A stretch of 40,591 nt of DNA from a virus. Positions 17,365 to 23,137 of this stretch are shown here, in pieces (within the stretch, counting starts at the first letter, position 1; every line of letters starts with the position of its first letter). The notes below the pieces were generated by a model, which was not told where the DNA came from, did not search any database, and was given only the letters and a program-made list of their open reading frames with translations. The position numbers and the translations under genes are program-made. Location: IMG/VR virus record IMGVR_UViG_3300049003_000077, positions 1 to 40,591 of that record. One strand, 5' to 3'.

Positions 17365-17429
17365 CAGTGGCCCTCGCAGGGGCAGGCCGTGTCGGCGAGT
17401 TCGCGGAGCAGGTTGCGCAGCAGCTTCAC
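17364..17429 (-). CDS. 21-codon micro-ORF (CxC peptide)
   Basis: The short frame opens at GTG 17429, which overlaps the stop of the gene upstream, and closes at 17364 in a TGATG junction with the next start. The product VKLLRNLLRELADTACPCEGH has a leucine-rich amphipathic helix and a CPC end. The double coupling suggests it is translated. No ribosome site of its own is visible. Confidence 0.45.
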   Translation of the reverse strand: MKLLRNLLRELADTACPCEGH

Positions 17430-17821
17430 GTCAGCACCCGGAACCGGCGGGTCAGCCGCTCCTTCATGTAGCTGGCGGCTTCGTCGGGGTGCTCGGAGCG
17501 GAAGCGCGTCTGGTCGAAGGTTAGGGAGACGACCGTCTTGTGCTCGGCGAAGGGCTTGCCGGTCTCGGCGACTTGCAGGACCTCAGCGGCGCCCATCTCG
17601 GCGAGGATGTCGGCCTTCGCCGCGTCGAGGGCCTCGCGCGCGGAATCGACACGGCGCTCGGCGCTGCGGTACTTCTTGCGGAGGGCGTCGGCCCTGGTCT
17701 TGGGGATCTCGGCCGAGGCCGGCGGCAGCGGCGTCAGGGTGCCCGGTGTCGTGTCGCCGGCGAGCTTGGCGCTGGCCTGGGCGAGGGCGGCTGACGCCGC
17801 CTGCGCGAGCTTGCCGGGCAT
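17426..17821 (-). CDS. Hypothetical helical protein, possible nuclease-accessory module
   Basis: ATG 17821 with GGAGG five bases ahead starts a 131-residue protein. The N-terminal half is a long charged helix (KTRADALRKKYRSAERRVDSAREALDAAKADILAEMG). The C-terminal half, TVVSLTFDQTRFRSEHPDEAASYMKERLTRRFRV, resembles the 'D...F..EHPE....Y....RRF.v' block at the end of YqaJ-type phage nucleases, but here it stands alone. It may be a recombination accessory factor; this is inference from short motifs. Confidence 0.55.
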   Translation of the reverse strand: MPGKLAQAASAALAQASAKLAGDTTPGTLTPLPPASAEIPKTRADALRKKYRSAERRVDSAREALDAAKADILAEMGAAEVLQVAETGKPFAEHKTVVSLTFDQTRFRSEHPDEAASYMKERLTRRFRVLT

Positions 17822-17850
17822 CGTTTCCTCCGAGAGTTTCGCGAGAGCGT

Positions 17851-17873
17851 CGTTTGTGGATACCCAACAAACG
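17851..17873. promoter_or_regulatory. Operator-like dyad cgtttgt/acaaacg
   Basis: Seven-base arms cgtttgt and acaaacg flank a 9-base spacer (ggataccca), forming a 23-bp dyad in the 179-base gap before the 131-residue gene. The arrangement suggests a regulator site that sets off a promoter for the genes from 17821 down. I cannot identify the -10/-35 with confidence. Confidence 0.5.
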
Positions 17874-17883
17874 CGCCGGTCCG

Positions 17884-17912
17884 ACGAAACCACGCGGGCG
17901 GTTACGAAACCA
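17884..17912. repeat. Two 9-bp direct repeats (acgaaacca), 20 bp apart
   Basis: The motif acgaaacca occurs at 17884-17892 and again at 17904-17912, so the copies are two helical turns apart on the same DNA face. Together with the adjacent dyad at 17851-17873 they look like a composite regulatory site. Confidence 0.5.
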
Positions 17913-18000
17913 GGAAATCCATTACCTTCTCGATGCCCGGCGTTTAGCAGAGCCCTACAACGGACGACCCTTCTGCCCCTGGCGTCACGCTGTCCGGGTG

Positions 18001-18189
18001 TCATCGTCGGCTCCTGGCGGAGGCGAGGTGCCAGCAGCCGCAGTCCGGGCACCGGTAGGCGGTTCCGGGCCGGTGTCGGCGGTGACCGGTGCGGGGCTTG
18101 GTGCGTCGCTGAACCTTGGCGAGGACGCGGAAGGCGGCCTGCGGTGACGGGTAGGGCACTTTGCCGATCGGGCAGCTGGCGGCGGTCAT
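18001..18189 (-). CDS. Small basic zinc-ribbon protein (62 aa)
   Basis: The 62-residue product contains SCPIGKVPYPSPQAAFRVLAKVQRRTK and a final RCPDCGCWHLAS. It fits a family of short phage zinc-ribbon proteins ('K.pyps...A....') abundant in actinophages. Start ATG 18189 has GGAG upstream. It follows the initiator gene, separated by a hairpin. Confidence 0.7.
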   Translation of the reverse strand: MTAASCPIGKVPYPSPQAAFRVLAKVQRRTKPRTGHRRHRPGTAYRCPDCGCWHLASARSRR

Positions 18190-18324: not shown

Positions 18325-19158
18325 TCAGAACGGCGGCGCGGTCCGGCCGGCTGTCCGTCTGCGGCTACTGCGAGGGTCCGGTGGGCCGGACCCTGCGGCG
18401 ATCAGCGTCGGAACGGCCGTGCGGGCCAGGCCGACGACGAGGTCGGGGTGGCAGTCGGGGCATTTCGCGACGGCGTCGGTGAGGCGGCCCCGTCGACGGT
18501 CCTCGGGGCTGCAGTCGGGATCGCCGCACCACTGCACGGCGGCTCGGCGCATGTCGAGCTGCGCGGCGGCGACGGCTTCGGCGGCAGCGGCCGCTCGGAG
18601 CGCGGAGCGGGGGCTGGTGCCGCAGGGGCGGCAGCCGGATGTCTTCCCGTGGGCGCATCGGCGCCCCCCAGCTCGGCTGGGGGGTTGGGGGGTAGTCGGA
18701 CGTTCAGGACGTTCGGGTGACACCCAGGTGTCACCCCTGGAACGACAGAGCTGTGTCACCCCGGGTGACAACCTGTCGCCCCCCTCGCCGACCTCCGGAG
18801 GGGGTGACAACTTGTCACCCCCTCCGGGGTTGCCCACAGCTTTTTCCACCGCGGCCGGGCGCTTCCTGGAGGCCTTGTCCGGCTTCTTCGCCGCGTCGTC
18901 CATGTGCACCCGGTAGCGGTGGGTTCCGTTCTGTCCGGCCCCTCGCACGACCGTGAGGCAGCCGATCTCCTCGAGGTGCTGGATGCGCCGCTGAACCGTG
19001 CGTTCGGAGCAGGTGGCCTTGTCGGCGAGTGTCTTGACCGAGGGCCACGCGTGGTCACCGTCGTCGCCGGCGTGATCGGCGATCGCCAGGAGGAGCAGCC
19101 GGTCGTTGCCGGTCGTCTTGGAGTACTTCCACACCCAGGCCGAGCACTCGACGCTCAC
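18325..19158 (-). CDS. Winged-helix replication initiator-like protein
   Basis: This 277-residue protein has an N-terminal winged-helix domain (residues 1-85): WVWKYSKTTGNDRLLLLAIADHA, WPSVKTLADKATCSERTVQRRI and YRVHM. This is the usual head of phage replication initiators. The following Pro/Gly/Ser-rich linker holds GDKLSPP, GDRLSPG and GDTWVSPE, encoded by repeated dyad DNA, and a zinc-like C-terminal part (CAHGKTSGCRPC, CPDCHPD) follows. Lambda O-like proteins also carry their origin iterons within the gene. Start GTG 19158. Confidence 0.75.
   Translation of the reverse strand: MSVECSAWVWKYSKTTGNDRLLLLAIADHAGDDGDHAWPSVKTLADKATCSERTVQRRIQHLEEIGCLTVVRGAGQNGTHRYRVHMDDAAKKPDKASRKRPAAVEKAVGNPGGGDKLSPPPEVGEGGDRLSPGVTQLCRSRGDTWVSPERPERPTTPQPPSRAGGRRCAHGKTSGCRPCGTSPRSALRAAAAAEAVAAAQLDMRRAAVQWCGDPDCSPEDRRRGRLTDAVAKCPDCHPDLVVGLARTAVPTLIAAGSGPPDPRSSRRRTAGRTAPPF
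18715..18850. other. Candidate replication origin (dyad iterons plus DnaA-box-like sites)
   Basis: The interval in the initiator gene holds four dyads built from GGTGACA/TGTCACC: 18715-18736 (perfect, 10-bp arms), 18754-18770 (8-bp arms), 18763-18781 (one mismatch), and 18795-18827 (perfect 33-bp palindrome, 16-bp arms). Next to them lie ttgcccaca (18830-18838), 7 of 9 with the DnaA box, and ttttccacc (18842-18850), 8 of 9. Iterons in the linker of the initiator gene next to DnaA boxes form the standard theta-origin layout. Confidence 0.65.
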
Positions 19159-19742
19159 GAGGCAACGTCCTCGTCGACGTCGACGTCGACCTGCTCGAGC
19201 TCACCGCCGGCGGCTGCGTCGTGCAGCCGGCGACGGTCGGCGAACGTTGTGCCGCCCCAGACTCCCTCGATGGCCATGCCGTCGATGCGGGTGGTCATCG
19301 CGTAGCGACGGCATGGGTTGAGGAACTCGCAGCCGGCGCAGAGCTTCTTGGCCTCGGTCCCGCGGGCGCCGTTCTTCGGGAAGAACAGCTCCGGGTCGAC
19401 CTGCGCACAGATCTGCGAGCCGTCGAAGGACGGCGCGGGCGGGCCGGGAGCCAGCTGGACGAACGGAACACCGGCCGGCTCCGGCGGCGGAGAGTCCTCC
19501 CCCAGTCCGGCGGGCTGCAGGGGCTCACCGATCGGCCGCACGCACAACACCAGCGCGCGCCTGCCGGCCGCGTGGCCGGCGTCCCAGGCCGCGAGCTCGA
19601 CGTCGGTCAGATACCGCAGGTAGTACCGCGGCCTGCCGCCGAGGCGCTGCAGCCAGCCGTCGCGGTAGGCCTCCTCACGCAGCGGTGCGGGATCGCGGGC
19701 CCACTCCCCCGCCGGGAGTGGATGGGTGATGGACAGCGTCAT
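19155..19742 (-). CDS. WhiB-like protein with long N-terminal extension
   Basis: The 195-residue protein has an N-terminal half (about 1-105) with YRDGWLQRLGGRPRYYLRYLTDVELAAWDAGHAAGRR, then the WhiB core: C112, C135, C138, C144 and GVWGG at 160-164. The tail is acidic (EQVDVDVDEDVAS). WhiB-family proteins carry a 4Fe-4S cluster and modulate sigma factor-dependent transcription. The N-terminal domain is not part of ordinary WhiB proteins (usually 80-130 residues); it could add another function or a protein interaction. Confidence 0.85.
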   Translation of the reverse strand: MTLSITHPLPAGEWARDPAPLREEAYRDGWLQRLGGRPRYYLRYLTDVELAAWDAGHAAGRRALVLCVRPIGEPLQPAGLGEDSPPPEPAGVPFVQLAPGPPAPSFDGSQICAQVDPELFFPKNGARGTEAKKLCAGCEFLNPCRRYAMTTRIDGMAIEGVWGGTTFADRRRLHDAAAGGELEQVDVDVDEDVAS

Positions 19743-21579: not shown

Positions 21580-21680
21580 CTGGGTCCCCGCCGCGATCGC
21601 AGGATGAGGTGCGCGGCGATGACGACGAGGCGGAGTTCACGCTCGACGCCGGCGACAAGGCTGTCGTGTCGGCGGCTCAC
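21576..21680 (-). CDS. 34-codon coupled small protein
   Basis: GTG 21680 overlaps the end of the ParB-domain gene (GTGA), and the stop overlaps the next start. The peptide is SRRHDSLVAGVERELRLVVIAAHLILRSRRG with basic ends and a hydrophobic centre. Double coupling argues for real translation. Confidence 0.5.
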   Translation of the reverse strand: MSRRHDSLVAGVERELRLVVIAAHLILRSRRGPR

Positions 21681-23137
21681 TGAGCACCGTCCGCGGGGGC
21701 GAGCATCGTCTGCTCGATGTCGGAGAGCTCGTAGCCCTGGTCGACCAGAAACCTCAGCCACCGAACGACCTCGTCGGCGGTGCCGCGCCAGGAGTCCTTC
21801 GCGATGCGGGTCTCGATCGCACCGGCGATGTGCGCGAGCAGCTGCAGCGGGAGACGCGCGTCCGGAACCCGCTCCCCCGTGGTCAGGGTCGTGCGCTTCT
21901 CCGTGGGGGTCGCCGACCAGGGCAAGACCGGGGTCTGCAGGCCCATCGCGGCGTCGGCGTCGTGGTCGCCGACGGGGGAGGCGCTGCCGGTCCAGCAGTG
22001 CAGGGCGTGCGGGTTGGTGGCGATCTCCTCGACCGCGAACCGCAGGGCCTCCTTCGGCGCCTTGGCCCGCTGCAGGTACTCCCGGATCCAGGCCCGCCGG
22101 GTGGCGTTGGCGGCCGCCAGCGCCTTGTTGTTGTCCAGCACCTGGCGGCGTTCGGCGCGCTGCCGCTCGAGCTCCTCGTCCGACATCGACGCGCCCGGAC
22201 CCCCGCGGGGATCTCTCCCCCACCGCTGGGTGTGACCATTCGCGGCCGGAGCCGTGCACACCTCGTAGACGAGGACGTCCACCCGGGTTCCGTAGTCCTG
22301 GCCCCGGATCGCGACCGCCGAGCCGCGGCAGGACCTGTGTCCATCCGGATCGATGACCTGCCCGGCGTGGAGCAGGTCGGAGATGCGCGCAGCGACCTGG
22401 TGCGCGGGGCTCGACTCCTCGAGCACCGTGCGGCCGGCCGCCACCATCTCGGCGCGCTTCGAAGCGATCGCCTCGGCGAGCGCGCGGTCCTGCTCCGCGC
22501 GGGTGACCGCGTGGGCGAACCGGCCCGGCCCCTCCCCCGCCGCCTGCACCAGCTGGTCGACCGCCGCGGTGTTGTCCTCGAATCGGGCGACGACCGCGGC
22601 CTGGTCCAGGGTGAGCCCGGCGCCGGCGACCGCGGCCGCGGCGGACGGCGTCATGCGGGCGACGCCGGCGGCCTTCATGACCCGCTTGCGGTCCAGGCCG
22701 GTGCGCGCGACGACGGTGTTCACGTCGACGTCGAGGTCGAGCATCGTCTGGATGCCGCGCGCCTCCTCCACCGCGGTGAGCTCGGCGCGCTGCAGGTTCT
22801 CGGCGAGCATCGCGCCCACGTGCTCGGCCTGGACGTGGTCGGTGGCGGCGTCGACCGACAGGTCTAGGCGGATGACGCACGGCACCAGCTCGACGCCGGC
22901 GGCGATCGCGGCCGCGGCGCGCCGATGCCCGGCCACGATCTGGTAGCTGCGGTCGTCGAGCGCGATGACCGTGAGCGGTTCGATGACGCCCTGGGCGGCG
23001 ATGGACGCGGTCAGCCCCTCGAGGTCGCCGAGGTGCTGCCGCACGTTGCGCGGGTGCGGGGCGAGCTTCCGCGGGTCGAGCAGGGCCGTGTCGAGCCGGA
23101 TGCTGTCCCGCCACTCCGATACGGGCAGGGCGGTCAT
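21677..23137 (-). CDS. ParB-domain protein (phage ParB-like CTPase/regulator)
   Basis: The 486 residues begin with the ParB N-terminal domain (about 15-125): LAPHPRNVR, VIEPLTVIAL, the GHRR box at 70-73 and ENLQR at 113-117. A helix-turn-helix region (VNTVVARTGLDRKRVMKAAGVA) follows. The large C-terminal half is specific and contains WGRDPRGG and a helical end. No ParA gene and no clear parS repeat are near, so the role may be transcription or DNA organisation rather than partition. Start ATG 23137. Confidence 0.85.
   Translation of the reverse strand: MTALPVSEWRDSIRLDTALLDPRKLAPHPRNVRQHLGDLEGLTASIAAQGVIEPLTVIALDDRSYQIVAGHRRAAAAIAAGVELVPCVIRLDLSVDAATDHVQAEHVGAMLAENLQRAELTAVEEARGIQTMLDLDVDVNTVVARTGLDRKRVMKAAGVARMTPSAAAAVAGAGLTLDQAAVVARFEDNTAAVDQLVQAAGEGPGRFAHAVTRAEQDRALAEAIASKRAEMVAAGRTVLEESSPAHQVAARISDLLHAGQVIDPDGHRSCRGSAVAIRGQDYGTRVDVLVYEVCTAPAANGHTQRWGRDPRGGPGASMSDEELERQRAERRQVLDNNKALAAANATRRAWIREYLQRAKAPKEALRFAVEEIATNPHALHCWTGSASPVGDHDADAAMGLQTPVLPWSATPTEKRTTLTTGERVPDARLPLQLLAHIAGAIETRIAKDSWRGTADEVVRWLRFLVDQGYELSDIEQTMLAPADGAQ

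Follow-up and report, generated by a model that had tools for sequence, protein, structure and literature searches.

A GGTGACA dyad array inside an O-like initiator gene as the probable initiator-binding half of a phage replication origin

The window analyzed here, the whole stretch of 40,591 bases, is a virus record with terminase, portal, head, scaffold, tape measure, tail and endolysin genes among its open reading frames (ORFs). Its minus strand carries an O-like replication initiator gene, and an array of dyads lies inside that gene. The features are listed below, with dyads and palindrome given without a strand.

18325-19158, minus strand: O-like replication initiator gene, 277 aa, GTG start
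18889-19158, minus strand: N-terminal winged-helix DNA-binding domain, aa 1-90 (alignment A1 and AlphaFold2 model)
18964-19005, minus strand: recognition helix, aa 52-65, including R57 (AlphaFold2 and covariation with the half-site)
18830-18838, plus strand: DnaA-box-like TTGCCCACA, one mismatch from the TTGTCCACA/TTATCCACA type
18803-18819: dyad 4, GGTGACA-ACT-TGTCACC, perfect, nested in the 33-bp palindrome
18795-18827: 33-bp perfect palindrome, enclosing dyad 4
18764-18780: dyad 3, GGTGACA-ACC-TGTCGCC, one mismatch
18741-18760: dyad 2, AACGACA-GAGCTG-TGTCACC, with a good TGTCACC and a degenerate AACGACA
18716-18735: dyad 1, GGTGACA-CCCAGG-TGTCACC, both half-sites perfect, 6-nt gap
18698-18714, minus strand: direct repeat GAACGTCC-T-GAACGTCC (gene sense), candidate unwinding repeat

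The first 100 residues of the initiator match Pfam HTH_36 above the cut-off (E=3.3e-14), and the ORF matches the replication initiation protein families PHROG 1032, 391 and 270 (phrog_1032, 391 and 270) with E-values down to 3e-21. Members of these families are named replication initiators, some of them labelled O-like. The AlphaFold2 model of the winged helix has a pLDDT of 87 and comprises helices at residues 3-12, 17-29, 41-48 and 52-65 together with a beta wing. A Foldseek search of the PDB with this model returned the RepA N-domain 4pql as the top match (E=9e-4, TM 0.5) and also matched 4pt7, while VIA-align scored other winged helices above the RepA-type DnaD-like fold for the domain. 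The linker is of low complexity and rich in Pro, Ser and Gly. The C-terminal half (18325-18660, minus strand) displays conserved Cys/His pairs, CxHGx5CxxCGT, CGxxxC and CPDCHPD, also present in the relatives L017 and L049, and looks like a candidate zinc-binding domain. The gene is flanked on the same strand by a WhiB-like regulator (19155-19742), a ParB-like protein (21677-23137, phrog_6218) and a RecE C-terminal-like ORF (17426-18052). No helicase or loader gene, P-type included, was recognized among the window ORFs scanned with Pfam and PHROG. The whole window protein gave no tblastn match to named phages and plasmids; homologues in named phages were sought with other family members as queries.

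The initial annotation had described GGTGACA/TGTCACC dyads and a 33-bp palindrome in the linker past the winged helix of this ORF, and both the elements and their placement were confirmed. Six exact half-sites fall within 104 bp, far above the at most two per 110 bp seen in 300 first-order shuffles of the whole window, and the 16-bp arm of the palindrome compares with at most 12 bp in 20 shuffles. The half-sites of dyad 1 are unchanged in the relatives L017, L049 and L355 and altered in one half in L356. GC skew, which had been suggested as a check, has no clear turning point at the array and is uninformative.

The array recurs in many phages. IMG/VR was searched with the DNA pattern GGTGACANNNTGTCACC followed by GGTGACA at most 30 bases on, ignoring the protein. 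This pattern was found at no fewer than 120 loci and its reversed control at none, and among the matches listed the array lay within one ORF with a homologous N-terminal winged helix in 107 of 120. One genome per species yielded 56 loci, from Proteobacteria, Actinobacteria, Firmicutes, Planctomycetes, candidate phyla and others, with the array inside a winged-helix ORF at 33. Dereplication of the IMG/VR and genome winged-helix domains at <70% identity left 62. Half-site density reaches 30 per kb at +300-400 of the initiator genes, compared with ~0.2 per kb in the surrounding DNA. In many relatives the dyads are short and lack a long stem, and half-sites recur in the same orientation at 21-23 bp steps. 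An equivalent search pattern with GGGTGCA dyads matched two loci only. Arrays with no detectable winged helix (12 of the 120 viral matches listed and 20 of the 56 genome loci) include truncated contigs, lone dyads and repeats of an unrelated kind.

Several loci depart from the common arrangement. In L056 a dyad lies upstream of the gene start. L012, L023, L081 and L086 carry several intergenic GGTGACA dyads with no winged-helix initiator detected nearby; in L012, L081 and L086 these adjoin a gene starting MPNWCY, and L012 and L023 are phage contigs of 77-85 kb. Near position 5000 of L002, a dyad array of GGGGGTTACTTCATGTAACCC and GGGTGACATCATGT lies upstream of a possible different initiator gene, which suggests half-site drift inside one array. 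L032 has a DnaD-type gene that gives no strong profile match, bears GGTGACA dyads and has a DnaB-like helicase gene after it, so GGTGACA dyads may serve other initiator types too.

Homologous initiators without the dyads had been named by the initial annotation as evidence against an origin. What was found is mostly the opposite: homologues without GGTGACA mostly bear other dyads at the same position, and a minority of distant homologues have none. An unbiased sample was taken by protein alone, as winged-helix homologues from 296 and 142 genomes, with a homologue-finding profile that had been built from dyad-bearing loci. About half showed significant linker iteration, more did so by eye, and a minority had none; the latter are remote homologues, perhaps not initiators of phages at all, which limits the claim. 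Named phages found by protein also have iterated dyads or half-sites at the array position, namely Bordetella phage PHB09, Mesorhizobium phage P1, Microcystis phage yong2, Labrenzia phage V1 and Vibrio phages D65 (weakly) and D77, and in Arthrobacter phage Jamun AACCGTCC repeats cross all frames there. The dyad types differ among these phages.

A second element adjoins the array on its 3' side (gene sense). There, AT content rises by 14% over 40 bp, and the excess coincides with repeats of AACC(A/G)TC; on the 5' side the rise is slight, at 5.5% over the 20 bp closest to the array. At least one copy follows the array at 22/62 loci, compared with 17/3130 background windows, and at least two copies at 14/62, compared with 0/3130. 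IMG/VR was also searched for a triple AACC(A/G)TC repeat, ignoring dyads and protein, which gave at least 120 loci. The raw number of matches is no evidence in itself, since the reversed control, which was slightly shorter, also yields 95. Among the matches listed, 90/120 lay in a winged-helix ORF on the same strand, at a median of 43 aa past the domain, compared with 0/95 control matches near such an ORF. The repeats are spaced by 11 bp (48) or 12 bp (57) and use three frames (111/30/29). Upstream of them the dyads vary and include GGGTGCA, CCGAAC/GTTC, CGGCAC, GGGACA, CCGGAA, ACGACA and more. In the window, the GAACGTCC pair has a 9-bp spacing, is not canonical AACC(A/G)TC and occurs in 5/5 members of the window's clade; it is best read as a divergent version of the AACC(A/G)TC repeats of its relatives. 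The candidate melting tract of the window is short and GC-rich, with an AT content of 0.40 over 20 bp against 0.28 locally. GAGAGAG runs followed by GCGCGC often lie directly 3' of the AACC repeats (for example in L001, L028 and L141), GAGAGAG occurring at 12/62 loci where ~0.06 would be expected. These runs are a possible third element.

Two DnaA-box-like 9-mers had been noted beside the array. The one that stands, TTGCCCACA, lies upstream (5') of the array in gene sense; imperfect here, it is perfect in three close relatives, reading TTGTCCACA in L017 and L049 and TTATCCACA in L355, and it is lost in L356. The other, TTTTTCCAC at 18841-18849, was discarded, having at least two mismatches even after a shift and no conservation in relatives. 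Across the window one-mismatch DnaA boxes are not in excess. Among actinobacterial homologues sampled by protein only, three DnaA boxes were found near the array against 0.09 expected, and over all loci such boxes are rare. Help from DnaA at the origin is therefore plausible in the actinobacterial lineage only.

The protein and its putative site change together. Arg occupies residue 57 of the recognition helix at 62/62 GGTGACA loci, compared with 7/44 loci with other dyads. When loci were ascertained by AACC repeats only, Arg57 was present in 7/8 TGACA loci (p=2e-4). Contrasts were drawn on a tree from which the recognition helix had been left out, and this gave 28 independent pairs differing in dyad class. 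Across them, changes at position 57 were concordant in 19 cases and discordant in none (p=2e-6), the strongest signal among 100 columns. Arg57 is not exclusive to GGTGACA and is also seen with other half-sites; GGGTGCA initiators have Tyr or Asn at this position. The covariation between residue 57 and half-site links the protein to the site and supports binding of the dyads by the initiator. A structural parallel is offered by the CRP/FNR winged helix, which aligns with the initiator domain with an rmsd of 1.8 Å over 63 residues. The start of the initiator helix, SERTVQR, resembles SRETVGR in CRP, where the final Arg makes contact with the G of TGA. Arg57 would thus be the equivalent of the CRP arginine that reads this G. 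The likeness lies in the winged-helix structure; CRP/FNR proteins, in contrast, are transcription factors and do not have their function in common with the initiator.

Conservation of the array lies in the DNA. GGTGACA is barred from the frame that creates a TGA, and the remaining five half-site frame classes are all used, most genes having half-sites in three or more frames. The presence of half-sites in every stop-free frame indicates that the DNA rather than the peptide is conserved. Where the window and L017 encode the same amino acid, they also use the same codon at 29/35 positions within the element compared with 76/135 outside (p=0.004), and synonymous codons are likewise conserved inside the element in the other two pairs (p=0.02 and 0.005).

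The array, its widespread link to a protein class, the DNA-level conservation, the adjacent repeats and the protein–DNA covariation are computed results. On sequence evidence, we read the array as the initiator-binding half of a phage replication origin embedded in the initiator gene, with a probability of roughly 0.85. An origin inside the initiator gene had been proposed by the initial annotation, and the location, the DNA-level conservation, the one-sided AT-rich tract and the covariation of residue 57 lend that proposal support. Apparently, the array represents a widespread, undescribed class of lambda-like initiator-embedded origin. In a literature search that left subscription journals mostly uncovered and is therefore weak, we found neither GGTGACA dyads nor AACC repeats described as a phage origin, nor, with the same incomplete coverage, any account of a residue-57 code.

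Other purposes for the array can be weighed against an origin. The dyads could be an operator, the winged-helix protein being mainly a repressor or autoregulator and the origin lying elsewhere. The R57 covariation would suit this reading as well, supporting the pairing of protein and site only and not its purpose, and the L056 dyad upstream of the gene start points the same way. However, the sites lie nearly always ~300 bp into the gene and not at a promoter, the AT-rich tract with its phased AACC repeats follows them in one direction specifically, and the family is annotated as O-like initiators. We regard the operator as unlikely, although autoregulation could exist alongside origin function. 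That the GC-rich palindromes act as RNA hairpins, for attenuation or termination in the initiator mRNA, is less probable still: the 33-bp perfect palindrome is able to fold, but a long stem is missing from the short dyads of many relatives, half-sites recur there in one orientation at 21-23 bp steps, and the half-site covaries with a DNA-recognition residue.

Two further explanations appear the most improbable. A partition site, or centromere, for the ParB-like protein of 21677-23137 would fit a window that has a ParB-like gene, parS sites being dyads, but from phage to phage the array goes with the winged-helix gene and with its recognition helix. Selection of the repeats as peptide (GD-K/T-LSP and an EPS-EPS linker), with the palindromes as a by-product, would agree with the low-complexity linker rich in Pro, Ser and Gly. 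It is opposed by half-sites in five frames, by AACC repeats in three frames with a spacing of 11 as well as 12 bp, and by the conservation of synonymous codons.

An origin within the initiator gene could work as follows. The linker-coding DNA of the gene would be bound at its GGTGACA/TGTCACC dyads by the N-terminal winged helix of the protein it encodes. Binding would probably be by dimers, and Arg57 of the recognition helix would read the TGAC core. Several such dimers would wrap the 100-bp array, and the tract on its 3' side in gene sense, which in relatives is AT-rich and often has AACC(A/G)TC repeats with helical spacing and here is GAACGTCC twice, would melt. The C-terminal part of the initiator would then recruit the host helicase machinery, and in actinobacterial relatives a DnaA box immediately 5' of the array may assist.

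A broader proposal, to which we give even odds, is that phages of many bacterial phyla share one undescribed design. Lineage-specific dyads in the gene of a winged-helix initiator, read by recognition-helix residues, for example position 57, would be combined with a widely shared module of AACC(A/G)TC repeats spaced at 11-12 bp. The repeats would act, independently of the dyads, as a sequence-specific element for melting and loading, the two modules being swappable separately and both class and sites predictable from sequence. Phage origins have been mapped in few phages, and if the proposal is true, sequence would be enough to locate those of a very large group of phages and prophages across many phyla. 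The code by which residue 57 recognizes the half-site would also become testable. The AACC repeats raise the question of which protein binds one conserved repeat where the initiators read different dyads.

Bacteriophage lambda provides the closest precedent in layout. In lambda O and ori-lambda, an N-terminal DNA-binding domain is combined with dyad iterons mid-gene and an AT-rich tract 3' of them (PMC7466680; L314). The family resembles lambda in having iterons inside the initiator gene with an AT-rich tract after them, a tract that is clear in the family and short in the window. Lambda differs in its ATCCCTCAAAACGAGGGA-type iterons and in having no AACC repeats, and neither lambda O nor P22 gp18 matches the A1 winged-helix profile at E 10. 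The window initiator, in turn, has no match to the lambda-O Pfam family. AACC repeats are likewise absent from P22 and TP901-1, and the TP901-1 rep has no match to the winged-helix profile. The O-like gp56 of Pseudomonas phage MD8 belongs to the same winged-helix class (E=1e-22) and has iterons and AACC repeats in the gene, its iterons differing in being of the GCAG...TGCACCCC type and not GGTGACA. Repeats within the MD8 O gene were mentioned by its authors (PMC8508860).

The RepA_N initiators of plasmids such as pSK41 and pTZ2162 have a DnaD-like winged-helix N-domain that binds sites inside the rep gene, the origin encoding the linker (PMC5703833). A winged-helix N-domain with putative sites inside its own gene is likewise seen here, and 4pql and 4pt7 are among the best Foldseek matches. 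In contrast, RepA_N initiators belong to Firmicutes plasmids and have different sites, AACC repeats are not reported for them (PMC5703833), and the RepA_N Pfam domain has no match in the window initiator. The class described here would work like the lambda origin and the RepA_N plasmid origins, and by sequence it is a member of neither (PMC7466680, PMC5703833).
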